From assembly GCA_028277405.1 (NCBI GenBank), contig JANQGH010000014.1:1-64000 (forward strand): a stretch of 64,000 nt of DNA, given 5' to 3'. Below are positions 944-49,488 of this stretch, one piece after another. Source of the DNA: Alphaproteobacteria bacterium (lineage in GTDB: Bacteria > Pseudomonadota > Alphaproteobacteria > DSM-16000 > Inquilinaceae). How positions within the stretch are numbered: position 1 is the stretch's first letter; the number at the start of each line of letters is the position of its first letter. Below the pieces are notes generated by a model that saw nothing but the letters and a program-made list of their open reading frames with translations, did not search any database and was not told the DNA's origin. Made by a program: the position numbers and the translations under genes.

Positions 944-1154
944 TGTTTTTCTTTCTAAATTCAAATGACTATGTGTCCATACAGTTAGCGTGTCCGCCGC
1001 CCATTTCCAGGGTCCAGTCAGGCGAAAACGGCCGTCGGGCGCCGGCCTGCCGTGCCACTCACAAAGCTCGGCGCGGGCTTGAGACGGGTCCGTCTTATCG
1101 TTACCTCTTTTCGACACGACCGTGAGGTCCCGGGACGAGATAGGAATAGGCGTT

Positions 1155-3065
1155 ATGAGACTGTTTGGACCGGCCATGTTCGTCGCGGCCCTCGTGATCC
1201 CATGGGCGATCCTGTGGGCTGGCGCCGGTACGGCGCAGACCTATCAGGAAGCGCCGATGCTGGCCGAGCAGGTCGCGGCCGGCACGCTGCCGCCGGTCGC
1301 TGAGCGGCTGCCGGAGACGCCCGCCACGATCGTGCCGCTGAGCGCCGGCACCTATGGCGGCGAAATCGAATGGCTGGCCGGGCGCGCCCGCGACATTCGG
1401 ATCATGAACGCCTACGGCTATGCCCGCCTGGTGGGCTTCGACGCTGACCTTAACCTCGTGGCCGACATCTTGGAGAGCTACGAGGTCGAGGAAGGGCGCA
1501 TCTTCACCTTCCATTTGAGGCCGGGCCTGCGCTGGTCGGACGGCGAACCATTCACGACCGAGGATTTTCGCTACGAATGGTTCGACGTCCAGCTGAACAC
1601 GGATCTGCGCCCTTTCGGCCCCGACCCTCGGCTCCTGATCGACGGCGAGCGGCCGGAGGTCGAGATCATTGACGATTACACCGTTCGCTATAGCTGGTCC
1701 GAACCCAACCCGCGACTGATCCCGGCCCTAGCGGGCGCCCTGCCGCTCTATCTTTACGCGCCGGCCCATTATCTGCGGCAGTTTCACAAGAACTATGCCG
1801 ACCCCGATGAGCTCGCGGCCGAGGTCGCCGCCGCCCAGCTTCGCGACTGGACGGTTTTGCACATCAGGCGGGGCAACCTTTACGAGGCGCACAACCCGGA
1901 CCTGCCCGTGCTGCAGCCCTGGGTGGTGGCAACACCGGCGCCGAGCCAGCGCTTTCGCTTCGTGCGCAACCCCTATTACCACCGGGTGGACGATCAAGGG
2001 CAGCAGCTTCCCTATCTCGACAACGTCTATGTAAACGTCTCCGACCCGTCGCTGATCGCCGTCCAGACCGGAACCGGGGCCAGCGATCTGCAGGCCCGCC
2101 ATATTCGCATCGAGGACTATGCCTTCCTGGCCCAGGCCGAGGACACGAACCAGTACTATATCGATCTGTGGGAGACGGTGCGGGGCTCGGAAATCGCGAT
2201 CTACCCGAACCTGACGGCCGCCGACCCGGTCTGGCGCGAACTGCTGCAGGATGTCCGCTTTCGGCGCGCCCTGTCGCTGGCCGTCTATCGCGAGGAGATC
2301 AACGAGATCATCTATTTCGGGCTGGGTGAGCTGTCGAACAACACGGTCGTGCCCGCCTCACCGTTTTGGACCGAAGAGTTGGCGACGGCATGGACGCAAT
2401 ACGACCTGGACCAGGCCAACGAACTGCTCGATGAGATCGGCTTGACCGACTATCACCGGGGCATCCGGCTGCTACCCGACGGCCGGCGGCTGGAGATTAC
2501 CGTGGAGACCTCGGGCGAGCGCCGCGAGGAGGTCGACGCCCTGCAGCTAATCGCCGATGGCTGGCGCAGCATCGGGGTCGCCATGTCCATCAGCAACTCG
2601 CAGCGCGACCTTTTCCGCAACCGCATCTTCGCCGGCGAGACCATCATGTCGGTCTGGTTCGGCCTCGACAACGGCCTGATCACGCCGACCACCGTGCCGA
2701 CGGAACTGGCGCCTGTCGACCAGAACTGGCTGCAATACCCGGCCTGGGGCCAATACTGGCAAACCGCCGGTGTGTCGGGCCAGGCGCCGGACCTGCCCTG
2801 GGCGCAAGACCTGGTCGACCTTTACAGCGAATGGCTGATCACGACGGACCGCGATCGCAAGATCGAGATCGTCACCCGGATGCTGGCGATTCATGCTGAC
2901 CAGGTGACGTCGATCGGTCTGGTTCAGGGCCTGCCGCAGCCGATCGTCGTCGCCGACCGGCTGCACAATGTCCCGTTGGAAGCGGTCTATAGCTGGAATC
3001 CCGGCGCCCATTTCGGGCGCTATCGTACCGATACGTTCTGGGTCGACCCCCAGGATGTGAACTGA
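1155..3065 (+). CDS. ABC transporter substrate-binding protein, family 5 (peptide/opine type)
   Basis: A 636-residue periplasmic solute-binding protein of the SBP_bac_5 family, which captures peptides, opines, sugars or similar ligands for an ABC importer. A signal peptide covers about residues 1-28. The family hallmark (FHLRPGLRWSDGEPFTTEDF) lies near residues 130-150, followed by the RNPYYHRVD block and the LSLAVYREEIN motif. The start at 1155 puts the signal peptide at the N-terminus; an in-frame ATG lies at 1122. No permease or ATPase gene is adjacent, so it is an orphan that must work with a transporter encoded elsewhere. It is longer than the usual 500-550 residues of DppA-type proteins. 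Confidence 0.88.
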   Translation: MRLFGPAMFVAALVIPWAILWAGAGTAQTYQEAPMLAEQVAAGTLPPVAERLPETPATIVPLSAGTYGGEIEWLAGRARDIRIMNAYGYARLVGFDADLNLVADILESYEVEEGRIFTFHLRPGLRWSDGEPFTTEDFRYEWFDVQLNTDLRPFGPDPRLLIDGERPEVEIIDDYTVRYSWSEPNPRLIPALAGALPLYLYAPAHYLRQFHKNYADPDELAAEVAAAQLRDWTVLHIRRGNLYEAHNPDLPVLQPWVVATPAPSQRFRFVRNPYYHRVDDQGQQLPYLDNVYVNVSDPSLIAVQTGTGASDLQARHIRIEDYAFLAQAEDTNQYYIDLWETVRGSEIAIYPNLTAADPVWRELLQDVRFRRALSLAVYREEINEIIYFGLGELSNNTVVPASPFWTEELATAWTQYDLDQANELLDEIGLTDYHRGIRLLPDGRRLEITVETSGERREEVDALQLIADGWRSIGVAMSISNSQRDLFRNRIFAGETIMSVWFGLDNGLITPTTVPTELAPVDQNWLQYPAWGQYWQTAGVSGQAPDLPWAQDLVDLYSEWLITTDRDRKIEIVTRMLAIHADQVTSIGLVQGLPQPIVVADRLHNVPLEAVYSWNPGAHFGRYRTDTFWVDPQDVN

Positions 3066-3278: not shown

Positions 3279-3776
3279 ATGATCGCCTTACGCGCCGCTC
3301 TGGCCTCGCTTGCCACGATCATCCTCGCCGGTTCGGCGCCTCCTCTACAGGCCCAGGACAACTCCGCCTGCGTCGCGTTCGAGGTCTATCCCGATTATGT
3401 CGACGTTCGGCTCGTGGATCTCGGCGAACCCGGCATGAGCATCGGTGACATGCGGGTCGGCGAAGTCCGCCTGCTCGACGACACCGGCGCCGAGGTCGGC
3501 CGGCAGCATTTTCAAGCCACGGTGATCCCCGGCGGGGGTGACGGCATTCATATGCTGGTCGGTCATGGCGATGAGGTTTATGCGAACGGAACGATCACTT
3601 GGAGCGGAAGCTTCACGTTCGCCGATCCGTCGACGCAGGGCCCGCCGGCGGACGATGTCGTCGTTTCGGTCATCGGCGGCACCGGTGACTTCGCCGGCGC
3701 CAACGGCACGCTGACCTGGTCCAATGATGCGCAAGGCCGGCGCGTGGCCAGCTTTGACATAAGCTGCGTTCAGTAG
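3279..3776 (+). CDS. Exported allene-oxide-cyclase-barrel-like protein
   Basis: A 165-residue protein with a signal peptide (about residues 1-25, ending QAQ). The mature domain shows alternating beta strands and the signature VSVIGGTGDFAGANGTL near the C-terminus, which resembles the GGTG.F.GA.G motif of dirigent and allene-oxide-cyclase barrel proteins. In bacteria these are mostly uncharacterised small beta barrels. A purine-rich AATGGAGATAG sequence precedes the ATG. There is one Cys near the start and one near the end of the mature protein, so a closing disulfide is possible. The gene stands alone, and enzymatic activity cannot be claimed. Confidence 0.6.
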   Translation: MIALRAALASLATIILAGSAPPLQAQDNSACVAFEVYPDYVDVRLVDLGEPGMSIGDMRVGEVRLLDDTGAEVGRQHFQATVIPGGGDGIHMLVGHGDEVYANGTITWSGSFTFADPSTQGPPADDVVVSVIGGTGDFAGANGTLTWSNDAQGRRVASFDISCVQ

Positions 3777-3989
3777 GCGTGCCTTAAGCACCGCCCAGGA
3801 TTCACCGATCCACACCAGAGTGGGATGGACAATACCGACGTCCCGACGCTCCCCACGCCAGGTTCGCCGCCACCGTCCGATTGAGAGGTCGCTTACGGAT
3901 TGATCGCCATCACCGCCTTCGCTAGTGAGGACGTGTCAGACCTTCGGCGATGGCCGCCGAGGCCGAACGCGCAGTTACAAGGCTGATTG

Positions 3990-4400
3990 ATGGTGCCTCC
4001 GCGGACCCTTGGGGCGTTGCTGATGCTGGCGCCCGCACTCGCCACGGCACAGACGGCGGACACTATGCCGGAAGACCAGGCGAACGCCGCCGCCGACGGC
4101 CTTGCCCTGGTCGGCTCCGTCTTTGTCACCGGCGCCACGGTTATGGACCTCTGCGGCGACGATGGCGCGTTGGCGGATGACGCGAGGGAAAACCAGGCCT
4201 GCCAGGCCCTGGTCATGGGGCTGTTTAACGGGTTTCTTTACGGCGCGACCTATGGCGGATTCGTCACCTGTGTTCCCGAAGATGTCGGCGCCGACCAGAT
4301 CGTGCCGCTTTTCACGGCTTATGTCCGGGCCGAGGGGCCGGAGGAATGGAACCATGCCGGCGACATGATGGCCTATCTGGCGTCGCTGACGGGCGGCTGA
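3990..4400 (+). CDS. Rap1a/Tai-like small exported protein
   Basis: A 136-residue protein with a signal peptide (about residues 1-22, ending ATAQ). The mature part carries the layout of the Rap1a/Tai immunity family: an early Cys (MDLCGDD), a central Cys followed by a GlyAla-rich helix (CQALVMGLFNGFLYG), then C-x-P-x-x-V-x-x-x-Q and a helical tail (VTCVPEDVGADQIVPL). Family members neutralise type VI secreted amidase effectors in the periplasm, but many relatives are orphans of unknown role. No effector or type VI gene is nearby. A TTG start one codon upstream (3987) is possible; the ATG is preferred. Confidence 0.55.
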   Translation: MVPPRTLGALLMLAPALATAQTADTMPEDQANAAADGLALVGSVFVTGATVMDLCGDDGALADDARENQACQALVMGLFNGFLYGATYGGFVTCVPEDVGADQIVPLFTAYVRAEGPEEWNHAGDMMAYLASLTGG

Positions 4401-4579: not shown

Positions 4580-4938
4580 TGGAGATGCTTGGCCACCGAC
4601 GCACGATCGCTGCTTTCGGGCGCGGCGCAGCCTCTGAGGGCGACGTCTGGAAGCCGATTGCGTTTGGCAATTCGGATGCGCGCATCGTCACATCGTCACA
4701 ACGGACGGCATCGAGAGCGGGCCCGGCTCGCCGCGACATCCCTAAAGGGCCATGTCCGGCCACCGTTCGATGCCATGGCGTCTTATCTATTTAGTAGAAA
4801 TAAAGCAGCGCATTAAAGAATCAAAGGTTGCATCACGCGCACCATCATCATAGTTTAGGAGTGGTAGGAATTCTTGGCGATAAAAGCGTCGGTTGAACTG
4901 CCAGAGACCTCTGAGGCCATCCAAAATGGGAGAAATCA
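4580..4938 (+). other. Gene-free stretch upstream of the GH17 gene
   Basis: No credible gene is seen here. The first half is GC-rich and its open frames are arginine-rich. The second half becomes AT-richer (25 of 60 bases G/C at 4801-4860) and probably holds the promoter of the GH17 gene. A GGGAGA ribosome site at 4928-4933 fits its ATG at 4939. A weak TTGCAT-17-TAGTTT arrangement near 4828-4856 is the only promoter-like pair noticed and is not convincing. Confidence 0.4.
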
Positions 4939-5811
4939 ATGTCGTTCTTCGGCGTTTGCTACTCGCCTTTCCACTGGCGCAAGGCTCTCACGGTTACCGA
5001 GGAGGAAGTGGAAACGGACATGGCGCTGATCGCGCAGAAGTTCACGCACATTCGCACCTACGACTCCATAGGCTATCAAAAATGGAATGTAGACAAAGCG
5101 GCAAAGCACGGTTTGACGGTCGGCCTTGGCGTTTGGATTAACCCCGGCTTACCTCCCGGTGAAAACGAAGCAAGTATCGATGCCGCCGTAGATCAGGCGC
5201 AAGATGCCGCGAAACAGTATGGCGGCAAGCCCGTCATCGATCTCGTAATCGGCAATGAGTTGGATCGGGAAGATCACCACAAATACAATCCTGGCCAGAT
5301 TCTCTCATACATCAACTATGCCAAGAACGCGGCCTCAAAGCTGTCCGACATCAAGCCCCGCGTGACGAGCTGCTTTAGCGGCACGGTCCTGGAAAAGTCG
5401 AATTCGCCCTGGGTCGACGTTATCAAGGCCTGTGAAGATGTCGTGTACCTGACGGTCTATCCTTGGTACGGCCAAGATCCAGACCACAGCTCTCCCGGAA
5501 ACATCGGTCCCAACATGGAGTGGTCATGGAGCCATGGCCTGAAACAGGTGGTCAGACTGGGCAAGACGATCGTGATCGCGGAAATCGGCTGGCCAAGCGC
5601 GGGGCGGAAGGATGCGACACCCGAGAACGAGAAGATCAATTACGAGACCACAAAGCGGTTCTTGTCTGGCGAGACGGACAAGAAGTGGAACCTCGATACC
5701 TTCTGGTTCGAGATGTTCGACGAGGAATGGAAGACCGACGAGGGTCCTCAAGGACCTCATTGGGGACTCTATACAACGGGTCCGAATCCCCATCCAAAGT
5801 TCGACTTCTAG
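4939..5811 (+). CDS. GH17-family beta-1,3-glucanase-like glycoside hydrolase
   Basis: A 290-residue single-domain protein of glycoside hydrolase family 17 (endo-1,3-beta-glucanase/glucan transferase, TIM barrel). The general acid/base is expected at Glu107 in VIGNELDR and the nucleophile at Glu215 in IAEIGWPSAG. The C-terminal FWFEMFDEEWK and HWGLYTT block is also typical. There is no signal peptide, so the enzyme would be cytoplasmic unless exported otherwise, which is odd for a glucanase. Base composition is clearly lower in GC than the neighbours (27 of 60 at 5041-5100), suggesting horizontal acquisition. It lies between two minus-strand aldo/keto reductase fragments. Confidence 0.85.
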   Translation: MSFFGVCYSPFHWRKALTVTEEEVETDMALIAQKFTHIRTYDSIGYQKWNVDKAAKHGLTVGLGVWINPGLPPGENEASIDAAVDQAQDAAKQYGGKPVIDLVIGNELDREDHHKYNPGQILSYINYAKNAASKLSDIKPRVTSCFSGTVLEKSNSPWVDVIKACEDVVYLTVYPWYGQDPDHSSPGNIGPNMEWSWSHGLKQVVRLGKTIVIAEIGWPSAGRKDATPENEKINYETTKRFLSGETDKKWNLDTFWFEMFDEEWKTDEGPQGPHWGLYTTGPNPHPKFDF

Positions 5812-5964: not shown

Positions 5965-6309
5965 TTGCCTGAGATCACCGACTTCCACGCTCATGTCTAC
6001 TACGCTGCCGACACCATCGCGCAGGCGCGGCGCTTGTGCGAGGCAGCGCGGGACCAGTTCGATGTCGAGATGGGGCGGATGCATGAGCGGCCGGTCGGGC
6101 CGCACCCGATGTGGAGCTGTCAGCTCGCCTTTCCGCCGGACCAGTTCGCCGCGGTGGTGCCGTGGCTGGCGCTGAACCGGAACGGGCTGATCGTGTTCAT
6201 CCATCCCGGAACCGGCGACCATTTGGCCGACCACACACGGCACGCGATCTGGATGGGCGGCATGCCGGATCTGAACCTGTCCATTTTTGACGAGGGTAAC
6301 GCCTCTTAG
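5965..6309 (+). CDS. DOPA 4,5-dioxygenase family protein
   Basis: A 114-residue protein of the DOPA 4,5-dioxygenase family (PF08883 type), whose members are small metal-dependent extradiol-type enzymes or relatives of unknown substrate. Expected metal-site histidines are visible in ITDFHAHVYY (His8, His10), GPHPMWSCQ (His47) and VFIHPGTGDHLADH (His80, His86, His90). The length matches bacterial members. No ATG is available, so a TTG at 5965 is the proposed start; the FHAHVYY motif sits close to it, as in relatives. The gene stands alone between the GH17 gene and a convergent aldo/keto reductase. Confidence 0.75.
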   Translation: MPEITDFHAHVYYAADTIAQARRLCEAARDQFDVEMGRMHERPVGPHPMWSCQLAFPPDQFAAVVPWLALNRNGLIVFIHPGTGDHLADHTRHAIWMGGMPDLNLSIFDEGNAS

Positions 6310-7441: not shown

Positions 7442-9436
7442 CTACCCTATGCCCGCGATCTCCTGTGCCAGCTTGCGTTGAAGCTCGTCTTCATTGCCAA
7501 GCGAACGGCGGTTGGCCGCGGGATCAAACAGCGTCGGGACGACATGGCGAAAGAGGGCCTGGCGTTTTTCCTGGCGCACGGCAAGCGGCAGGCGCATCAG
7601 GGCATCGTTCAGCCTGGACACCGCATCGTCGGTGAAAACCCTGTCCCATGCGTCCCTTTCCGGGCCGAAATCGAAGGTGATTTCGTTCGGCTGCTCGATG
7701 ACCGGGCGTTGGGCACGCAGCCATTCCGTGCGGTCTTTATCCACCGCACCGTCGGCGATCGCGACACCGTAATCCCGTTCCGCCGCCTCGACGCTGACGA
7801 AGCCGTAGCGCACGTCCTCCAGCACCGCCTCAGGCGGACGCAGGAACGGATCGCCATAGCCGCCACCGCCGGGGGTGAGGAAGGTGATGGTGTCGCCCTC
7901 TTCCATGGCGACCATATCGATCTTGCCGAGATCCTCTTCCGCTTCGGTACCGATGTTGCGGACCACGCGCATGTTGGCGCCGGGTTTGCCGCCCGCCATG
8001 CCCCAGGGGCGGAAATAGAAGCGCTCCAATCCGCGACCGAGCACTGCGCTGCCGCCCTGGGTGACGCGGAAGGTGAAGGCCAGACCCAAGCCGCCGCGCC
8101 AGCGGCCGGCGCCGGCGGAGTCCCGGTTCAGGCCGTAATGCAGCACGTCGATGCCGGCCTCCAGCTCACTCTTTTCCGCCGGCGTGTTGCGGATGGTCGA
8201 CAGCGAGCCGTCGACACCGTCATAGCCGTCGGAACCGTAGCGCGCGCCGGACCCGACGATGATCGAGTTCACCACCAGCACGTTGCGCGCGCCGGAGCGT
8301 TTGTCGTATTCGGCCAGCACCACCGGCACCATGGCGCCGCCCGAGGGGGTCGGCACGTCCTTGGGCACGGCGCGGGCGAAGGCGCCAGTCACCGCATCGT
8401 TCAGGCGATAGGCCGAGGCGGCGCGCACGCCGGTGGCGGCTGGAAATTCCGGGTCCAGGATCGAGCCCTTGCGGGTGGAGACCGTGATCGGTTCGAACAG
8501 ACCGCCGTTGAACGGCACGGTCGGATCGTGGGTGGTGACGAAGTGCAGCACCCGAACGGTCAGCCAGGCATGGCGCGTGCCCAGGGTCGGCACGTTATAG
8601 GCGCTGGCGACCTGCGGGTCGGTGCCGTCGAAATCGAGATGGATGCGCCCGTCCGTCACCGTCATGGCGACACGAAAGCGCACCGGCACCGGCGTCACCC
8701 CGTCATCATCCATGTAGTCCCAGAAATCGTAGGTGCCGTCGGGGATGCGGCGCAGCACCTCGCGGGCCTTCAAGGCGGCATACTCCAACAGATCGTCCTG
8801 GGCCTGGATCATGGTTTCGAAACCATGGCCCGCGACCATCTCGGCGATCCGTCTGGCCCCCGTCTCCAGCGCCGCGAGCATGGCCGTGAGGTCCTGCACG
8901 TTCAGGTCAGGCGTACGTACGTTGGCGCGGTAGATCGCCAGCACGTCCCGATTCATCTCGCCGCCGCGCACCAGCTTCAAGGGCGGGATCAACAGCCCTT
9001 CCTGGAAGATTTCCGAATTGCTGGGCGAGATGCTGGACGGCACCTTGCCGCCGATATCAGTGGAATGGATGAAGTTGTAGCCGTAGCAGACCAGTTCTCC
9101 GCCGTGGAAGTACGGCCGAATCAAGGTCAGGTCCGGCGTATGGCTGACGAGGCCGGCGCTCATATAGGGGTGGTTGGTCAAGAGAACGTCGCCCTCGCCC
9201 AAGGGCTCGCCCAAGGCGTCCAGCGTCGGCTTGATGTCGTAGTCCAACAGCGCGGAACCGAAATCGCGCGGATTGCCGAAGAAACGGCCAGATCGGGTGA
9301 CCAGGCCGACGGCGAAATCCACCGCCTCCTTCACATAGAGCGAGCGGGCCGTGCGCTTCAGCGTCAGGGCCATTTCCTCCGCCGCGGCAGCGACCTTGGT
9401 GTTCAGGATTTCCAGGCTTACCGGATCGATCTTCAT
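7442..9436 (-). CDS. hyuB: Hydantoinase B / 5-oxoprolinase beta-type subunit
   Basis: A 664-residue HyuB-family protein (Hydantoinase_B, PF02538 type). With HyuA it forms enzymes that hydrolyse N-methylhydantoin or 5-oxoproline with ATP, or act as acetone/acetophenone carboxylases. Visible markers are MKIDPVSLEILNTKV at the start, TNHPYMSAGLVSHTPDL with the following FHGGELVCYGYNFIHSTDIGG, and the C-terminal LTPGGGGYGDP. The start at 9436 is chosen over an earlier in-frame ATG at 9484 because it overlaps the hyuA stop (ATGA), implying translational coupling. It is the last gene of a five-gene run: binding protein, two permeases, hyuA, hyuB. Confidence 0.93.
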   Translation of the reverse strand: MKIDPVSLEILNTKVAAAAEEMALTLKRTARSLYVKEAVDFAVGLVTRSGRFFGNPRDFGSALLDYDIKPTLDALGEPLGEGDVLLTNHPYMSAGLVSHTPDLTLIRPYFHGGELVCYGYNFIHSTDIGGKVPSSISPSNSEIFQEGLLIPPLKLVRGGEMNRDVLAIYRANVRTPDLNVQDLTAMLAALETGARRIAEMVAGHGFETMIQAQDDLLEYAALKAREVLRRIPDGTYDFWDYMDDDGVTPVPVRFRVAMTVTDGRIHLDFDGTDPQVASAYNVPTLGTRHAWLTVRVLHFVTTHDPTVPFNGGLFEPITVSTRKGSILDPEFPAATGVRAASAYRLNDAVTGAFARAVPKDVPTPSGGAMVPVVLAEYDKRSGARNVLVVNSIIVGSGARYGSDGYDGVDGSLSTIRNTPAEKSELEAGIDVLHYGLNRDSAGAGRWRGGLGLAFTFRVTQGGSAVLGRGLERFYFRPWGMAGGKPGANMRVVRNIGTEAEEDLGKIDMVAMEEGDTITFLTPGGGGYGDPFLRPPEAVLEDVRYGFVSVEAAERDYGVAIADGAVDKDRTEWLRAQRPVIEQPNEITFDFGPERDAWDRVFTDDAVSRLNDALMRLPLAVRQEKRQALFRHVVPTLFDPAANRRSLGNEDELQRKLAQEIAGIG

Positions 9437-11523
9437 GTCGCTTGGCCTTTCCCCGAAACGTCGGTGGGGCGCAGATGCAGGCAACCGGTCGGGTCGGTCG
9501 ACGCCGCCCAGCCGGGCGGCACCCAGATGGTTGTGTCGTCCTGTTCGATGATCGCGGGGCCGGCAACCGCATGCGCGGTCGTAAGATCGGCGCGCATGCG
9601 AACGGCCGCGTCGACCCAGACACCGTCACCGACATAGACCGGCCGCATATCGGCCTGCACCGGCGCGTCGCCATCCTGGCTCGCGGCCAGTTGCACAGGC
9701 GGAACGGCGCCGTTCACACGTACGCGCAAGGTGGTGATGTCGACCGGGCTGTCGGCATGGCGAAAGGCGTACAGCCGCTCATGTTCCCGATGGAACGCCT
9801 CCTTGATCGCCGCCACGTCGCCGGACCGCCAGGCCGCGTCCGCGATCGGCACGGTCAGCACGAAGGCGGTGCGCGGATACTGCATGTCGGCCGTGACCTC
9901 GACCGCGACCGTATTGGCCAGGCCTCCCTCTTGGCCAATCCAGGCCTGGGCCTGGGCCTCAAGATCGGCGAGAATCCGCGTCACCTCGGCGCCGGCGTTC
10001 GGGTCTTCGCCCAAGGTCAGGCGCCGGGAGCGCACGAAGTCGCGCCTGATGTCCGCGACCAGGGCCCCGAAGGCGCAGAAAGTGCCGGGCGAGGGCGGGA
10101 TCACGATGTGGCTCAGCCGTGCTTCTTCCGCCAGCATCGCCGCATGGGTCGGGCCGGCGCCGCCATAGGCAACGAGCGCGAAGTCGGCCGGGTCCAGGCC
10201 GCGTTGCGCCATGCCCTTGGAGACCTCCGTCGCCATTTTGGCGGTGGCGATGCGCAAGGCCGCGCGCGCCGTTTCCGCCCCCGCGGCCGGCCCCTCAAGG
10301 CCGATCTTGGCGCCGAGCTTCGCCAACGCGTCGATCGCCGCCTGGCGGTCGATCGTCATGCGCCCGCCCAGAAAATAGACCGGATCGAGCAGGCCCAGCG
10401 CGACATAACAGTCCGTGATCGTCGGCCGGTCGCCGCCCTTGCCGTAGCAGATCGGCCCCGGATCAGCGCCGGCGCTTTCCGGGCCAACCTTCACGACCCC
10501 CTGGGCATCGATCCAGATCACCGAGCCGCCGCCGGCACCGATGGCCCAGACATCGACCACGGGCATGATGATCGGCAGATCGCCCAGCTTGGTTTCCATG
10601 GCGGTCGCGGGCGCGCCATCCTCGATGATCGCCATGTCCGACGAGGTGCCGCCCATATCGATGGTGACCAGCTTGGGCAGAGCCAGCCGCGTCGCCAGAT
10701 CGGCGGCGGCAACCACCCCCGCGGCCGGCCCCGACAGCAGGGTCTGGATCGGCTCGGCACGTGCGGAGGCCACGGAAACCGTGCCGCCGTTGGACGTGGT
10801 GACGAACAGAGGCGCGCGTGCGCCCATTCCGTTCAGCCGGTCCGTTAGACGGGCGAAATAGCGGTCCATCAACGGCTGGACGAAGCAGTTCAGCGAGGTT
10901 ACCAGCGCCCGTTCATACTCACGCACCTCCGGCCACAGTTCGGCCGACGCGGTGACCAGAATGTCCGGCAACAGGTCGCGCAGACGATTGGCGATCCGGA
11001 TTTCCAGGTCCGGATGGGCGTAGGAGTTCAGGATCAAGACGCCGACGGCATCCAAGTCGGCCTTGGCGATGCTTTCGGCCAGTGCAGCTAGATCGTCCCC
11101 GCTCGGTTCCGCCCGAACTGCACCGTCCGGCCCCAACCTGGCGTCGATCTCGAAGACATGATCGCGAGCAATCAAGGGGACCGGCTTGGGGTACTTGTAG
11201 GAAAACGTGTTCGGCAAGCCGCCGCGCGCCAACAGTATGGTGTCGCCAAAACCCCTGGAGATGACGAGGCCGATCTTGGCGCCACGCCGTTGCACAACGG
11301 CGTTAAGCGCGATCGTGGTGCCGTGAACCAGCAAGGAGATCGCGTCGGGCTTAAGCTCGGCGGTGGTGAGCAGACCGTCCAGCCCGTCGGTGACGGAGGC
11401 TGACGGGTCCGAAGGGCTGCTGGGAACCTTGAAGTTCAGCAGCCTTTCACCGTGCTCGTCGGCCAGGACAAAGTCGGTAAAGGTGCCGCCTACGTCGATA
11501 CCGACCCGGCAATGTGCTGACAC
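9433..11523 (-). CDS. hyuA: Hydantoinase A / 5-oxoprolinase alpha-type ATPase subunit
   Basis: A 696-residue HyuA-family protein of the ASKHA ATPase fold. The N-terminal Hydant_A_N domain starts with VGIDVGGTFTDFVL (first phosphate loop); the central Hydantoinase_A domain has the second loop TIDMGGTSSDMAII and a GAGGGSVIWID segment; a C-terminal domain follows. The family couples ATP hydrolysis to ring opening or carboxylation together with HyuB. The gene starts 3 bases from the end of the upstream permease and ends overlapping hyuB by four bases. Linkage to a dipeptide-type importer suggests that the imported compound is the substrate; its identity cannot be read from sequence. Confidence 0.93.
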   Translation of the reverse strand: MSAHCRVGIDVGGTFTDFVLADEHGERLLNFKVPSSPSDPSASVTDGLDGLLTTAELKPDAISLLVHGTTIALNAVVQRRGAKIGLVISRGFGDTILLARGGLPNTFSYKYPKPVPLIARDHVFEIDARLGPDGAVRAEPSGDDLAALAESIAKADLDAVGVLILNSYAHPDLEIRIANRLRDLLPDILVTASAELWPEVREYERALVTSLNCFVQPLMDRYFARLTDRLNGMGARAPLFVTTSNGGTVSVASARAEPIQTLLSGPAAGVVAAADLATRLALPKLVTIDMGGTSSDMAIIEDGAPATAMETKLGDLPIIMPVVDVWAIGAGGGSVIWIDAQGVVKVGPESAGADPGPICYGKGGDRPTITDCYVALGLLDPVYFLGGRMTIDRQAAIDALAKLGAKIGLEGPAAGAETARAALRIATAKMATEVSKGMAQRGLDPADFALVAYGGAGPTHAAMLAEEARLSHIVIPPSPGTFCAFGALVADIRRDFVRSRRLTLGEDPNAGAEVTRILADLEAQAQAWIGQEGGLANTVAVEVTADMQYPRTAFVLTVPIADAAWRSGDVAAIKEAFHREHERLYAFRHADSPVDITTLRVRVNGAVPPVQLAASQDGDAPVQADMRPVYVGDGVWVDAAVRMRADLTTAHAVAGPAIIEQDDTTIWVPPGWAASTDPTGCLHLRPTDVSGKGQAT

Positions 11524-13523: not shown

Positions 13524-15122
13524 TTACTCGCCGATCGTCACGTTTTGCAGGGTCAAGGTCGCATCGCCCCGGATCGGCGCCTCGACAGTGTCCTGCATGC
13601 CCCAGGTGATCATCGGCTGGTGCAGGTAGACGGCACTGATCGTGTCACGCGCCGCCTCCATGCCCATGCGATACAGCTCCTCGCGCCGCGCTTCGTCGAA
13701 GGTGACCGGCAATTCGCGCGACACCTGGTCGACGGTTTCATTGGAATAGAGCGCCCAGTTGAAGAAGCCTTCATTGGCGTCGGCGTCGCGGGTCATCATG
13801 GTCGCGGTAAAGGTGTCCTGGCTGTCGAAGCTGTTGGCGCCGTTGCCGATCAGATGAAAGCTTGAGGTCGGTCCGTTGACCAGCATGCGGGCGAACTCCG
13901 GCCAGACCATGCCGTTCACCCGGACCTCGATGCCGACACGGTCCAGCATGCCGGCCACCGCGCGGCAGATCTCCTCGGTGTTGACATACCGTTCCAGCGG
14001 GCAGTTCAGCTGGGTGATGAAGCCGTCCGGATAGCCGGCCTCGGCCAAGAGGGCGCGGGCCGCGTCGGCGTCGTAACCCCAGGGCTGGTCGAGATCGGCC
14101 TGATAGCCGCCGAAGCCGGGCACGGACGGAATACCGACCACGCGGGCATCGCCGCGCATCACCCGGTCGACGATCAGGTCGGCATCGACGGCATGGGCAA
14201 TCGCCTGGCGCACGCGCACATCGCGGAACGGATTGTCCGTGATCGGCTCGCCATCGTTGGTCCAAGTGTCCAGCGCCACGTCACGGGTGCCGTCCATCTC
14301 AAGCTGCATGAACAGCAGTTGCGGTTCCTGTTCGACATGGAAGCCGTCGGTGTTCTCCAGCCGTTCGACATCCTGTAGCGGCAGGTCGATGATCAGTTGG
14401 ACCTCGCCGGACAGCAAGGCGGCAACGCGGGTCGGGCCGGAGCCGATGGGCGAGTAGACGGCCTCGTCAACATTGCCGGGGAAGTCGCCCCAATAGTCCT
14501 CGTTGCGGACGAACGAGGTGCGCACGCTGGGGTCATGCTCGGTCAACGCCATCGGCCCGGTGCCGTTGGCGTTGCGCACGGTAAAGCCCTCCGCGCCCTC
14601 GGCACCGAGATCGGGGATCTCCAGCGAATCGTTGGCCTCCAGCCAGGCCCGGGACATGACGAACATCCGGCTCATCTTGCGTGGCAGGATCGGGTCGGGA
14701 TTGTTGGAGACCACGTCGACGGTCAGGTCATCGACAGCGGTTGCCTCCGCAACATCGCCGAACAGCGAGGTGTAGAACCGGCTGTCCTTCTGGCGCATGA
14801 TCGAAAACGCGACGTCCTCGGCCGTCAGCGGCTGGCCGTCGTGAAAGGTCACGCCCTCGCGGATGTGAAAACGCCAGGTGTTGTCACCGAGATATTCCCA
14901 ACTGGTCGCGATGCTGGGCACCAGTTCCATGTCCAGCGACAGGCCGACCACGCTGTCATAGACCTGTCGAAAGATCGCCGTGGTGACAAAGTCGTTGGTC
15001 GCGTGCGGGTCCATGGTCAGTGCCGGCGTGGTCCCGGCAAAGCGCAGGGTCTCCGCGCTCGCGGGCGCCGCCATTGCCAATGCGACGGCCGTCGCCGTGG
15101 CCATAATCGTGTGCTTGAGCAT
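13524..15122 (-). CDS. ABC transporter substrate-binding protein, family 5
   Basis: A 532-residue periplasmic binding protein of the SBP_bac_5 family and first gene of the minus-strand importer/hydantoinase operon. A signal peptide spans about residues 1-24 (ending PASA). The family motif FHIREGVTFHDGQPLTAEDV lies near residue 95, and VRQAIAHAVDAD in the second half. The start at 15122 is preferred over an in-frame ATG at 15179 because it begins the signal peptide and is preceded by AAGGGGGA, a strong ribosome site. The ligand is not identifiable from sequence. Confidence 0.92.
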   Translation of the reverse strand: MLKHTIMATATAVALAMAAPASAETLRFAGTTPALTMDPHATNDFVTTAIFRQVYDSVVGLSLDMELVPSIATSWEYLGDNTWRFHIREGVTFHDGQPLTAEDVAFSIMRQKDSRFYTSLFGDVAEATAVDDLTVDVVSNNPDPILPRKMSRMFVMSRAWLEANDSLEIPDLGAEGAEGFTVRNANGTGPMALTEHDPSVRTSFVRNEDYWGDFPGNVDEAVYSPIGSGPTRVAALLSGEVQLIIDLPLQDVERLENTDGFHVEQEPQLLFMQLEMDGTRDVALDTWTNDGEPITDNPFRDVRVRQAIAHAVDADLIVDRVMRGDARVVGIPSVPGFGGYQADLDQPWGYDADAARALLAEAGYPDGFITQLNCPLERYVNTEEICRAVAGMLDRVGIEVRVNGMVWPEFARMLVNGPTSSFHLIGNGANSFDSQDTFTATMMTRDADANEGFFNWALYSNETVDQVSRELPVTFDEARREELYRMGMEAARDTISAVYLHQPMITWGMQDTVEAPIRGDATLTLQNVTIGE

Positions 15123-15200
15123 CGTGGAAGTCCCCCTTGCTATCGCCATCTGTCCCACAACGGGCAAACGCGTTACCACCGCGCTTTTCGGGCCCTGTAC

Positions 15201-21388: not shown

Positions 21389-23056
21389 TCAGGCACGGGT
21401 GCCCAGGCCGGTCGCTGGGTCGACCGTAACATCATAGTCCGACAGCGCCCCGGCGACCGAAACGGCGCCTGCGGCAACGTCGGCCGCCACGGCCTCGACC
21501 GCGCGCAGCTTGGGATCGCCATAGCCGCCGCCGCCCGCCTCGCGGATGGTCAGCGTGTCGCCTGGGGCCAGGGCGTGCCGCCCCTTCGGCGGAATGGCGC
21601 TGCCATTGATGGCAAATTCGCGCGCGGCCCCAGGGGCACCGCCAAGGAAGCCGCGCGCCGGAAACTTGGTGCGCAGACCGAAGATCGAGACATCAACCGG
21701 CATACCAGACGTGTTCACGAGGGCGGCCTCCTGGCCCGTACCGCCGCGAAACCGGCCCGGGCCACCGGTGTCCGGCAGCATGCGGCGATAGAGGACACGC
21801 ATGCCCGTCTCCCGCTCCCACACCTCGGACGGCACGACGGCGTTGTTGGTAGGGAACGGCACGGCGGCGCGGCCGTCATGCCCGTCCATGGCGCCGAGGC
21901 CGCCGGCCAGGAAGTATTGTGTCGCCATCTCCCTGCCGTCCGACCGTCTGGCCGTGACCAGCATCAGGGTCGCCATGCCGCTGTCGGCCTGCACCCGGCC
22001 GGGCAGGACGTCGGCCAGGCAACTCATCACCAAGGGCACGATGAACCAGCCGACCGTGTGGCGCCCACCCGTGGGCGACGGCTTGGTCGCGGCCAGGATG
22101 CAGCCTTCTGGCGCGCTGATCGAGATGGGCAAAAGCGTGCCGTCATTGTTGGGGATCGACGGCGTGGTCAGGCACTTCACCGCATAGCTGGCAAACGAGC
22201 GCGTGTAACAAAACGGCACATTGATCGCGACCGGCGCAGCCGGCCCCGTGCCCGCGAAGTCAAGCGCGATCCGATCGCCCTCGACCGTGACCGCGCAGGC
22301 CAGATCCAGGGCCTCCGTCACGGTCTCGATCGCCATCTCGCGGCGATAGGTGCCGTCCGGGATCGCCGCCAGCTCGCGCCGCATCGCGCCTTCGGACTGG
22401 GCAATGATGGCGTCGGCCAAGGGCTGTAGATCGTCGATGCCGTATTCGTCCATGAATTCGCCGACGAGGCGGGCGCCCACCTCCGTGCCGGCGACGTTGG
22501 CGTCAATGTCGCCGAACACCTCGTCGACGACGCGCACATTGTTGGCCAGAATGTCGCGCAGCAGCGGGTTGAACGTACCGGCCTCGACCAGCTTGCAGAC
22601 CGGCAGGATCAGCCCCTCGTGATAGAGGTCCGGATTGCCGATCGCGAGGCCCGCCCCGCCGATGTCCGGCAAGTGAGTGATGGTCATGACGAAACCGACC
22701 ACCCGGTCGCCGCGAAACACCGGCCGCGCGACGCAAATGTCGGGCGTATGCCCCGTGCCCAGCCACGGATCGTTGGTCACCAACACGTCGCCCGGCTTCA
22801 GGCTTTCGACCGGATAACGCGCCAGCATGTGCCGCATGGTCAAGGGCGCGGTGCCGATGAAGGCCGGCATGCTGAGGCTGGCCTGGGCGATCGAGCGGCC
22901 CTTGGCGTCGAACATGACGCAGGCCAGGTCCCACGCCTCGCGCACGCCGACCGAAAATGCCGTACGTACGATCGCGGTCAGGATCTCGTCCGTGATGGCG
23001 ATCAGACGATCCCACATGATGCCCAGGCTGACGGCGTCGATCGGCGCCTTGCTCAT
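21389..23056 (-). CDS. hyuB: Hydantoinase B / oxoprolinase subunit (second copy)
   Basis: A 555-residue HyuB-family subunit, about 110 residues shorter than the first copy, mainly at the C-terminus. Markers are VSLGIMWDRLIAITDE at the start, VTNDPWLGTGHTPDICVARP, TITHLPDIGGAGL and the final IREAGGGGYGDP. Its ATG overlaps the hyuA stop by four bases, so the two subunits are coupled. It is the last gene of the minus-strand unit gntR-ridA-hyuA-hyuB, assuming read-through. It ends 10 bases from the convergent class V PLP gene. The substrate is unknown; differences from the first copy suggest a different compound rather than duplication. Confidence 0.93.
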   Translation of the reverse strand: MSKAPIDAVSLGIMWDRLIAITDEILTAIVRTAFSVGVREAWDLACVMFDAKGRSIAQASLSMPAFIGTAPLTMRHMLARYPVESLKPGDVLVTNDPWLGTGHTPDICVARPVFRGDRVVGFVMTITHLPDIGGAGLAIGNPDLYHEGLILPVCKLVEAGTFNPLLRDILANNVRVVDEVFGDIDANVAGTEVGARLVGEFMDEYGIDDLQPLADAIIAQSEGAMRRELAAIPDGTYRREMAIETVTEALDLACAVTVEGDRIALDFAGTGPAAPVAINVPFCYTRSFASYAVKCLTTPSIPNNDGTLLPISISAPEGCILAATKPSPTGGRHTVGWFIVPLVMSCLADVLPGRVQADSGMATLMLVTARRSDGREMATQYFLAGGLGAMDGHDGRAAVPFPTNNAVVPSEVWERETGMRVLYRRMLPDTGGPGRFRGGTGQEAALVNTSGMPVDVSIFGLRTKFPARGFLGGAPGAAREFAINGSAIPPKGRHALAPGDTLTIREAGGGGYGDPKLRAVEAVAADVAAGAVSVAGALSDYDVTVDPATGLGTRA

Positions 23057-25158
23057 GCGGCCAGTGTTCCTTCGGCGGCGGCGATGGACGCGATCAGATT
23101 GCCGTGGCTGTCGATCTCGACCCGGTCGCCGACCCCGATCACGCAGGTGGATTCCCGCTCCTCAACCAGGGCCGGCCCGGCAAAGCTGTCGCCCGGTTTC
23201 AGGGCCAGACGGTCGTAGACGGGCGTTTCGACAAAGCCGCCAGCATCGGGGAAATAGGCCGCCCGCACCCCTTTGCGGGCCTGATCGGCGGCACCGCGAT
23301 CGAACGCGAAATCCGTACTATCGGTCGGTCGAGGCCCGCTGACGGTTGCCTTCCACGCGATGATGTCGATCGGCCGGTCGGGAAAGGACTTGGAGAAGAC
23401 ACCCTCATACGCGTCGGCAAACAGGCGCGGCAGCGCCTCGATCAGCGCGGCACCGGCGAGGTTCGCCGGCATCGTCACCTCGATATCGTACCCTTGGCCC
23501 CGATACCGCATGTCAAGAGCGCGTACGACGGTCAGGTCGGTGCGCCGTACGTCCGTGCCGCTGAACGCGTCCGCCGCCTCGTCGACCAGATTGGCGAAAC
23601 CCTGGTCGATCGCCGCCGGTTGCAAGCCTTCCAACTCGACCAGATCCGACCGCAGCACCTCGAACGACAGCGGGCTGATCAGCATGCCGATGGCCGAGGC
23701 AACGCCCGCGCCCGCCGGGAACACCACGCGCGGCACCAACAGCTTGTGCGCCACGCGCAGCGCGTGGATCGGGCCGGAGCCACCGAACGCCACCATGGTC
23801 GAGCGGCGATAGTCGAAGCCGCGCTCGGACGCGTGATTGCGAAATGCGCGCGCGACATCCTCGTTGATCGTCTCGTGAATGCCCCAGGCCGCGCGCAGAG
23901 CGTCGACATCCAGCGGGGCGGCGATCTCTCTGCCGATGGCCTCGGTCGCAGCACCGCCGTCCAGCGCCATCTCGCCGCCGAGGAAAAAATCCGCACTCAG
24001 ATAGCCGAGCGAGAGGTTGGCGTCGGTCAAGGTCGGTGCCGAACCGCCAAGCCCGTAGCAGGCCGGGCCGGGATCGGCCCCCGCACTGCGCGGGCCGACC
24101 TTGACCACGCCGCGCGCGTCGATCTCCGCCAGGCTGCCGCCGCCGGCGCCGATCTCGATCAGGTCGATCACCGGGATCTTGGCCGGCAGGCCGCTGCCGA
24201 GCTTGAATTCGTGAACCCGCGCGACCTCCATCTCATAGCGGTGCAAGGGCGTCATGTCGCGCACCAGCGCGCCCTTGGCCGTGGTGCCGCCCATATCGTA
24301 GGCCAGCAGGTCCGCGATACCCGACGTTTCGCCCAACCTGGCGGCAAAATGCACGCCGGCGGCCGGCCCCGATTCCAGCAGGCGCACCGGATAGCGCCGG
24401 GCGGTCTCCACCGTCACCGTGCCGCCGCTGGAGGTCATGATGAACAGGCCGCCGGCAAAGCCAAGTTCGCCCAGGCCCGTCTCCAGCCGGTCCAGATAGC
24501 GGCTCAACATCGGCTGGGTGAACGCGTTCATCGTCGTCGTCGTCCAGCGCTCGTACTCGCGCATGAACGGGAAGATGTCGGCCGACCGGCTGATGGAGAC
24601 GTCGGGCAGAACCTCGGCGACGATCGCGGCGACATCCCGTTCATGGGTATCGTCGACGTACGCGTTCAACAGACAAACCGCGATCGCCTCGATCTCGCGC
24701 GCTTGGGCAAGCCGCTGAAGCCGGTCCCGGACCTGATCGTGGTCCAGCGTCTCGACGACCTCGCCCGACGGCCCGATCCGTTCCGACACCTCAATGCGCA
24801 TGGGACGTTCGATCAGCGGTTCGGGGTAACTGATGCGCAGATCGTACATATCGTATCGCCGCTCCTTGGCGATATCGAGAACGTCCGCGAAACCCTCGGT
24901 GCAGATCATGGCGGTCTTCGCACCCCGCCGCTCGATCAGCGCGTTGGTGACCAGCGTCGTGCCATGCACGATCGTCCCGACATCGCTGATCTCCGCACCC
25001 GCCTTTTGCATCAGAACGGGCAGGCCGGCGATCACGGCGGCCGACGGGTCGTGCGGCGTCGTCAGTTGCTTGTGCACGACCAGCCGCCCGGAACGCGGGT
25101 CAAGGGCGGCAAAATCGGTGAACGTCCCCCCGATATCGATGCCGACCCGCCAATCCAT
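23053..25158 (-). CDS. hyuA: Hydantoinase A / oxoprolinase ATPase subunit (second copy)
   Basis: A 701-residue HyuA-family ATPase. The first nucleotide loop is VGIDIGGTFTDFAALD, the second LAYDMGGTTAKGALV, where the TTAK variant replaces the TSSD seen in the first copy of this window and puts it in another subgroup of the family. The Hydant_A_N and Hydantoinase_A domains are both complete, and a GAGGGSLAEID segment follows. Only 4 bases separate it from the upstream ridA-like gene, so it is clearly operonic. It lies divergent from the branched-chain-type importer genes, which may supply its substrate. Confidence 0.93.
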   Translation of the reverse strand: MDWRVGIDIGGTFTDFAALDPRSGRLVVHKQLTTPHDPSAAVIAGLPVLMQKAGAEISDVGTIVHGTTLVTNALIERRGAKTAMICTEGFADVLDIAKERRYDMYDLRISYPEPLIERPMRIEVSERIGPSGEVVETLDHDQVRDRLQRLAQAREIEAIAVCLLNAYVDDTHERDVAAIVAEVLPDVSISRSADIFPFMREYERWTTTTMNAFTQPMLSRYLDRLETGLGELGFAGGLFIMTSSGGTVTVETARRYPVRLLESGPAAGVHFAARLGETSGIADLLAYDMGGTTAKGALVRDMTPLHRYEMEVARVHEFKLGSGLPAKIPVIDLIEIGAGGGSLAEIDARGVVKVGPRSAGADPGPACYGLGGSAPTLTDANLSLGYLSADFFLGGEMALDGGAATEAIGREIAAPLDVDALRAAWGIHETINEDVARAFRNHASERGFDYRRSTMVAFGGSGPIHALRVAHKLLVPRVVFPAGAGVASAIGMLISPLSFEVLRSDLVELEGLQPAAIDQGFANLVDEAADAFSGTDVRRTDLTVVRALDMRYRGQGYDIEVTMPANLAGAALIEALPRLFADAYEGVFSKSFPDRPIDIIAWKATVSGPRPTDSTDFAFDRGAADQARKGVRAAYFPDAGGFVETPVYDRLALKPGDSFAGPALVEERESTCVIGVGDRVEIDSHGNLIASIAAAEGTLAA

Positions 25159-48825: not shown

Positions 48826-49488
48826 CTACGCTCCTTGGTTTCTTGCCGATGTGCCGTAACGGATTATCGCGTGGGTAACGAGATAAAGCACGATCGCGTT
48901 CAGCACATGCCAGAAGAAATGGGTGCCGAGGGGATAGATACTGCACAAGGGTTCATCGATCATCCGCAGGGTTAGGGAAACCGCGAACAAGCCCGCGGCC
49001 ACGAGCACCGCCGGTCCGGCCGCATGCCGCCGTGCGACGACCAAGAACAGACCGATCGCGGCCATGGTGATCAGCGCTGCGATGTAAGGCCCGCCGGGCA
49101 CCCCGATCAGCGCCGGCGGCACGATGGCCAGCACCAGCACGACCAGAACTGCGATCAGTCCGCCCCAATAGGGCAGGCCCACCAACCGCGTGACCGCCAG
49201 GTAGGTCGCCGCCAGGATGAACAGGCCGATCGGAATGACGTCCGCTAGCGCCGCCCAGAACACGGCCAGCGTGTGAAACAGAAAACTGCCGATGCCGATG
49301 GCGAGGACCAGCAGCACCAGGATCCAGTTCGCCGGGTCATGGTTGGGCTGGCGACGCGCGCGGTTGAGCTCAACCGCCAACACCAAAGCGGCGATGATGA
49401 AGGCGAGATTGGTGACGGCGTTGATCGGCTCGGCCCAGAAATCCGGGCCGACCCGTTCGCAATAGACGTCGATATGGTCGCTTTCCAT
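48826..49488 (-). CDS. Ceramidase-like (CREST superfamily) membrane hydrolase
   Basis: A 220-residue integral membrane protein with about seven transmembrane helices, resembling bacterial members of the alkaline ceramidase/CREST superfamily. The family's N-terminal IDVYCERVGPDFWAEPINA and the putative zinc-site elements SFLFHTLAVFWAALADVIPI and GTHFFWHVLNAIVLYL are present, with His, Asp and two His residues in the expected transmembrane positions. Enzymes of this group hydrolyse amide bonds of ceramides, but bacterial activities are poorly known. First gene of a minus-strand operon with a cupin, an acyl-CoA synthetase and an aldo/keto reductase. Confidence 0.82.
   Translation of the reverse strand: MESDHIDVYCERVGPDFWAEPINAVTNLAFIIAALVLAVELNRARRQPNHDPANWILVLLVLAIGIGSFLFHTLAVFWAALADVIPIGLFILAATYLAVTRLVGLPYWGGLIAVLVVLVLAIVPPALIGVPGGPYIAALITMAAIGLFLVVARRHAAGPAVLVAAGLFAVSLTLRMIDEPLCSIYPLGTHFFWHVLNAIVLYLVTHAIIRYGTSARNQGA

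Follow-up and report, generated by a model that had tools for sequence, protein, structure and literature searches.

The gene studied here lies in the 64,000-nucleotide stretch of DNA that was analysed (the window) and encodes what its sequence identifies as a true and complete enzyme of family GH17, predicted to cut beta-1,3-glucans. The reading we prefer, with moderate confidence, is that this protein (the window GH17) is a cytoplasmic retaining beta-1,3-glucan hydrolase, horizontally gained from a donor that was Bacteroidota-like or from an unsampled relative of it. A first-pass annotation had set the enzyme apart from the membrane-linked forms usual in proteobacteria and had hinted at a plant or fungal affinity. 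This interpretation was supported in part: membrane fusion is indeed the norm in the class, and the plant or fungal hint was not supported.

Table 1. Features in and around the GH17 gene, in window positions
Feature	Position	Strand	Remark
GH17 glucanase-like gene	4939-5811	+	290 aa; one catalytic domain; N-terminus not signal-like
In-frame TGA	4912-4914	+	Bars any N-terminal extension of the window GH17
GGGAG, plausible Shine-Dalgarno site	4928-4932	+	6 nt 5' of the ATG; by consensus only
Codon of E107, predicted general acid/base	5257-5259	+	Motif GNE, just after strand beta-4
Codon of E215, predicted nucleophile	5581-5583	+	Motif AEIGWP, in strand beta-7
FDEEWK block	5716-5733	+	Residues 260-265; from sequence and alignment
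Family-5 solute-binding protein	1122-3065		Pfam
Secreted-looking protein	3279-3776	+	Below-cut-off barrel matches, AOC-like (4.6e-5) and Dirigent (4e-4)
Small protein	3987-4400	+	Just above the Rap1a immunity cut-off (28.0 vs 27.7 bits)
DOPA 4,5-dioxygenase family gene	5965-6309	+	Directly downstream of the GH17 gene; 8.5e-36
Hydantoinase/oxoprolinase A-B gene pair	7442-11523		First of two separate pairs
Family-5 binding protein	13524-15179		Adjoins peptide-type permease, near hydantoinases
Hydantoinase/oxoprolinase A-B gene pair	21389-25158		Second pair
Ceramidase-family protein	48826-49488	-	1.5e-11; a family unusual in bacteria

The gene starts with ATG in an open frame of 298 codons and has no internal stops. 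The eight codons between the upstream TGA and the start contain no ATG, GTG or TTG. A promoter scan at the gene found none (mean of 0.7 in shuffled sequences), and a terminator scan found one, upstream of the gene (mean of 1.4 in shuffles). An overlapping frame from position 4927 looks signal-like by eye, and we rejected it as a frameshift-hidden signal peptide because the conserved first strand would be lost to it. The intact 290-residue frame and a PF00332 score of 45.1 bits confirmed the GH17 enzyme that had been annotated at this place.

The Pfam match (cut-off 28.2 bits, E 1.3e-11) aligned residues 210-288 only, and GH17 was the sole Pfam family above cut-off; an NCBIfam search with the protein gave nothing up to E 0.1. 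Both catalytic glutamates and the C-terminal FDEEWK block were present, as first described. E107 and E215 were identical in all 99 other rows of the alignment, and from established knowledge of GH17 and clan GH-A we take them to be the general acid/base and the nucleophile, respectively. An AlphaFold2 model built from eight sequences (pTM 0.77, mean pLDDT 72.1), in which we place moderate confidence, predicted a complete (beta/alpha)8 barrel with eight strands alternating with helices. In the model strand beta-4 spans residues 99-104, ahead of E107, and strand beta-7 (residues 210-216) holds E215. Three structures were tied at the top of the structural alignments: 4wtp (Z 23.7), the R. miehei transferase RmBgt17A, whose title names GH17; 8akp (Z 23.6), a Penicillium sumatraense protein whose title names no family; and 6fcg (Z 23.3), an endo-laminarinase from Formosa. 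The first row of another family followed at Z 21.3, about 2 below these. Foldseek ranked 8akp and plant GH17s first, and neither 6fcg nor 4wtp was among the 50 matches that it listed for the model.

The annotated lack of an export signal was borne out by a simple hydropathy and pattern test, which is not a signal-peptide predictor. Over the first 45 residues of the window GH17 the highest mean hydropathy of any 12-residue stretch was 0.74, as compared to 2.32-3.12 over the first 70 residues of its seven nearest relatives (L002-L008), and no usual start codon lies upstream in frame. A lipoprotein-type signal with a lipobox-like cysteine was found in all seven relatives and was absent from the window GH17, in whose model only three residues precede the first strand of the barrel. 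Based on these features the relatives are inferred to be exported and lipid-anchored, and the window GH17 is probably cytoplasmic.

The gene appears isolated in its own lineage. The family and order samples consist of the same 17 genomes, 12 of them with a completeness of 90% or more and a contamination of 5% or less. Close homologues throughout the relatives, the result that the first-pass annotation had named as speaking against its view, were searched for, and a GH17 match was found in 0 of the 16 other genomes. At the level of the class some GH17 match occurred in 77 of 385 genomes, the window genome included. Among the 43 best-matching loci that were fetched from the class (L009-L027, L029-L052), 41 encode the GH17 within an ORF of 535-1253 aa that contains 4-8 hydrophobic segments, so the statement that proteobacterial GH17s are usually membrane-linked is true for most of those in the class. 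L022 is shortened by the contig end and still has four hydrophobic segments, L027 with its 328-aa ORF is the exception, and the open frame of a further class match (G048:C9) is just 390 codons long.

The nearest relatives were found elsewhere and are not among these membrane-fused proteins. A pattern-based scan of species genomes picked out seven loci, each from a Bacteroidota metagenome-assembled genome, with 29-33% identity in the best segments. For L002-L006, scoring of whole genomes against the window GH17 gave E-values between 9e-43 and 9e-38 and identities of 35-37%; L007 scored E 3e-27 and L008 E 1e-25. Identity to the closest relatives is at most 37-38%. The seven match nearly end to end and have ORFs of 349-380 aa. 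The L008 genome contains a further, eighth copy of lipoprotein type (G672:C290, E 3.1e-40), which is outside the trees; as this copy had gone unlisted, the pattern-based scan is incomplete. The best other matches were far weaker, with E 4e-19 among the 385 class genomes and 2e-18 among 299 genomes of the phylum. Around G666, the sole carrier of the strong type in both its 296-genome phylum sample and its 393-genome order sample, the best matches were E 3e-16 in the 295 other genomes of the phylum and 8e-16 in the 392 others of the order, and the subgroup therefore looks rare even there. PF00332 gave 24.4 bits, below cut-off, on one of two lipoprotein relatives and no match on the other. Ten genes scanned beside the lipoprotein loci included no recognised glucan enzyme; a DUF5686 gene lies upstream at two loci and a lipase-3-domain gene nearby at two. 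A limited literature search returned no title on this subgroup.

The first tree was made from 101 of 141 domain hits, after removal of duplicates, loci marked for thinning, domains shorter than 240 residues and X-rich rows. A 44-row tree was drawn from these 101; it kept every one of the seven lipoproteins, and its other rows were picked by seeded random choice. L027 was excluded from the 44-row tree and from the second large quick tree because its branch was 3.97 in the first quick tree. The window GH17 grouped with the seven lipoproteins at 100/99.9 (two support measures) in the 44-row tree, and at 89 with L027 and 100 without it in the large quick trees. The seven alone were grouped at 95/90 in the 44-row tree and at 58 in the quick tree without L027, and were ungrouped in the one with it. 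Support for the window GH17 as their sister or as nested among them thus differs between trees. The kinship with the seven is firm within the sample. The indication for Bacteroidota as donor is weak because the terminal branch is long (1.31-1.62 changes per column), identity reaches at most 37-38% and only seven relatives are in the tree. Joining the window GH17 to the membrane-fused group of its phylum in the 44-row tree cost 55 log-likelihood units and was rejected (p-AU 1.65e-05). This rejection bears on the idea that an old gene of the class has survived by vertical descent in this genome alone. The very long branch and the mere 17 family and order genomes available for searching would suit such a relic, but the phylum's membrane-fused GH17s are separate and the composition of the gene differs from that of its neighbours, and we consider the idea very improbable.

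The comparison of codon usage proposed in the annotation was run on the window, with a background of 29 Pfam-supported genes of at least 200 codons each. The GH17 gene had a GC content of 0.548 (background 0.650 +/- 0.018, z -5.6), a GC3 of 0.700 (0.822 +/- 0.028, z -4.3) and a codon log-likelihood of -1.091 (z -2.7), about equal to the lowest of the 29 genes. Against 226 other window ORFs its GC was third lowest of 227 (z -3.8); the GC3 (z -0.6) and codon (z -0.4) figures from that background were set aside because it includes antisense ORFs. The gene lies inside a 65,464-base contig and is flanked by genes of normal composition. A foreign contig is unlikely because of this interior position, the normal neighbours and the match of one neighbour in a family genome: of the 16 other family genomes, 6 have the DOPA-dioxygenase gene, with 62% identity in one. 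As for the host, two window proteins, a hydantoinase A and a malonyl-CoA decarboxylase, have only alphaproteobacterial genera among their ten best listed plasmid matches (48-54% identity), which fits the proteobacterial label of the annotation but does not prove it. The window GH17 was probably acquired horizontally. Among the window proteins tested for synteny around the dioxygenase in three family genomes, only the dioxygenase itself matched; beyond 7.4 kb the test list was made up of whichever ORF was longest at a given position, so that some real genes fall outside it. As no synteny was found, no insertion site can be demonstrated, and a search for an insertion scar gave only short two-copy repeats that may be due to chance. 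A phage origin was rejected, since tblastn of a phage collection gave no match and the pattern matches in viral contigs, obtained with the protein or with alignment A1, included no relative. A plasmid origin was likewise set aside, with only four distant matches at 24-27% identity (three Azospirillum plasmids and one Candidatus Chlorohelix).

The phylogeny groups the protein with Bacteroidota sequences, and the hint at plants or fungi was not supported. When the window GH17 alone was searched against the PDB, plant enzymes (3ur7, 1ghs) were best, at a weak E of 2e-5 over the last 80 residues only, and 6fcg was ninth (E 0.01), whereas the Bacteroidota matches are near end to end with E down to 9e-43. 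A profile of the window GH17 and its seven relatives had the bacterial 6fcg as its best match (E 3.6e-22), and on this basis a plant or fungal origin was not favoured. The donor comparison covered bacterial genomes, plasmids and phages, and the source may yet be a eukaryote beyond that sample.

The plant idea suits another protein of the class better. The GH17 of L027 (L027:772-1755, in G094:C36; L166:8639-9622) is a 328-aa single-domain protein of plant type, with a phmmer E of 1.4e-46 to barley 1,3-1,4-beta-glucanase 1aq0 and 179 bits to PF00332. Its N-terminus is not strongly hydrophobic (1.16), and its gene lies inside a 219-kb contig where the neighbours are bacterial-looking by eye.

The genes around the window GH17 give little sign of a glucan system. 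None of the 36 Pfam-scanned window ORFs, the GH17 included, is a glycosyltransferase or another glucan enzyme, in agreement with the annotated lack of a glycosyltransferase beside the gene. The accompanying claim that no transporter is nearby was too strong, given the family-5 solute-binding protein at 1122-3065 and the components of a peptide-type ABC system that lie between 12.5 and 18.6 kb. Neither these components nor the two family-5 binding proteins point to uptake of glucan. In the host genome no second match to PF00332, a model that detects the subgroup poorly, and no GH16 was found. One GH3 is present, which we take to be NagZ because it has a KHIPGHG motif and adjoins a ScpA-like gene. 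As GH16 is absent and the sole GH3 is NagZ-like, no beta-glucan pathway is visible around the window GH17.

This setting, with no glucan partner genes among those scanned and no match in 16 other genomes, would also fit a decayed import whose signal was cut off on transfer and whose protein has no cellular role. The lipoprotein-type signals in seven of seven nearest relatives and a start only three residues before the first strand point the same way. The frame, however, is fully open, the catalytic and core residues are kept despite the long branch, and a plausible ribosome-binding site precedes the start, which together suggest that the window GH17 is still translated and constrained. We regard such a decapitated relic as unlikely.

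Contrary to what had been suggested, single-domain GH17s without a signal are not chiefly a plant or fungal trait. Among 24 complete short Bacteroidota GH17 ORFs, 21 scored under 2.0 in the hydropathy test, as did L073, L080 and L085 (294-297 aa) from the window's phylum outside its class. Short GH17s also occur side by side in twos, one of about 294-311 aa and one of about 306-386 aa, each from a different GH17 group of the tree, both at these three loci and at Bacteroidota loci such as L110, L114, L120, L124, L133 and L134. One such enzyme has been published: the available text of PMC11005184 and PMC13188888 describes MlGH17B of Muricauda lutaonensis as a single-domain protein of 295 aa without a signal peptide, predicted to be cytoplasmic and characterised as a beta-1,3-glucanosyltransglycosylase. 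The parts available of PMC13188888 report Tyr136, Trp191 and Glu192 as crucial to its transglycosylation, and the laminarinase MlGH17A as lacking their counterparts.

We located the corresponding columns from 26 short Bacteroidota rows, as MlGH17B itself is outside our alignment and trees. The Trp-Glu columns hold W in 24 and E in 23 of these 26 rows, and the Tyr column Y in 13; in the fused rows of the window's phylum W is found in 54 of 54 and E in 48 of 54. In the window GH17 the pair is Y177-G178 and the Tyr136 column is R110. The pair is missing from all seven lipoproteins (W in one, E in none). The lack of Trp-Glu favours hydrolysis over transfer in the window GH17, by analogy to the published enzymes.

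These columns also bear on whether the window GH17 could be a cytoplasmic glucanosyltransferase of the MlGH17B kind, remodelling a beta-1,3-glucan store. It shares the size class and the missing signal with MlGH17B (as described in the available text of PMC11005184 and PMC13188888), and its model matches the transferase RmBgt17A. That match, though, is tied with the hydrolase 6fcg, the window GH17 stands apart from the short signal-free rows in the trees, and the Trp-Glu pair common in short and fused rows is replaced by Y-G. A transferase of this kind seems to us improbable, to about the same degree as the decapitated relic.

Under the preferred reading of a horizontally gained cytoplasmic hydrolase, the gene would have reached the window lineage from a source resembling Bacteroidota or from an unsampled relative of that source. 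The export module would have been lost or never transferred, because the relatives are apparently exported and nothing but the barrel is left in the window form, and the enzyme would work in the cytoplasm. E107 would protonate the glycosidic oxygen and E215 would form the glucosyl-enzyme. Water would be a likelier acceptor of the glucosyl unit than a sugar, because the Trp-Glu pair of MlGH17B transglycosylation is Tyr-Gly here. The substrate may be an imported or self-made beta-1,3-gluco-oligosaccharide. A more specific proposal, which we put forward tentatively as a possibility short of likely, is that the window GH17 and the lipoproteins form a GH17 subgroup without the W-E pair, of which the window copy has moved from the surface to the cytoplasm and trims intracellular beta-1,3-glucan. 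Relocation would then have come about by loss of the lipoprotein signal after transfer between phyla, into a host in which no other GH17 or GH16 was found.

If active, the window GH17 would provide a biochemical anchor for a GH17 branch that family models barely detect. It would also illustrate how, after inter-phylum transfer, the relative of an exported polysaccharide hydrolase can act, or simply persist, within the cell. The wider lesson is modest, a bacterial signal-free GH17 having already been published.

The window GH17 was compared with known enzymes. With the L002-L008 lipoproteins, a group in which we found no characterised member, it shares the G-x-C-Y-x-P-x-H start, the FWFEMFDE block, both glutamates and the absence of a W-E pair; they differ in having a signal and linker, whereas the window GH17 is a bare barrel. 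Its likeness to MlGH17B (single domain, about 290-295 aa and no signal peptide in the available text of PMC11005184 and PMC13188888) is set against a probably different clade, as judged from the short Bacteroidota rows, the missing Trp-Glu and the absence of a visible laminarin gene cluster around the gene. The Formosa endo-laminarinase FbGH17A (6FCG), a hydrolase, has the same GH17 fold and is the best PDB match of the profile, but it is larger, carries insertions and lies inside a laminarin gene cluster, according to the available text of PMC6246565. The GH17-GT2 fusions of Proteobacteria (NdvB/Orphan and Glt enzymes) have the same GH17 catalytic residues. In these, as the available text of PMC10237404 describes them, a periplasmic GH17 is fused to membrane helices and GT2, while the window GH17 is a 290-aa GH17 alone and is separate in the tree from the fused GH17s of its phylum. 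The plant endo-beta-1,3-glucanases (3ur7, 1ghs) share the fold and the catalytic glutamates, but are matched in sequence only over the C-terminal 80 residues. Since signal-free bacterial GH17s are already known, the window GH17 is a mildly interesting acquisition rather than a new type of system.
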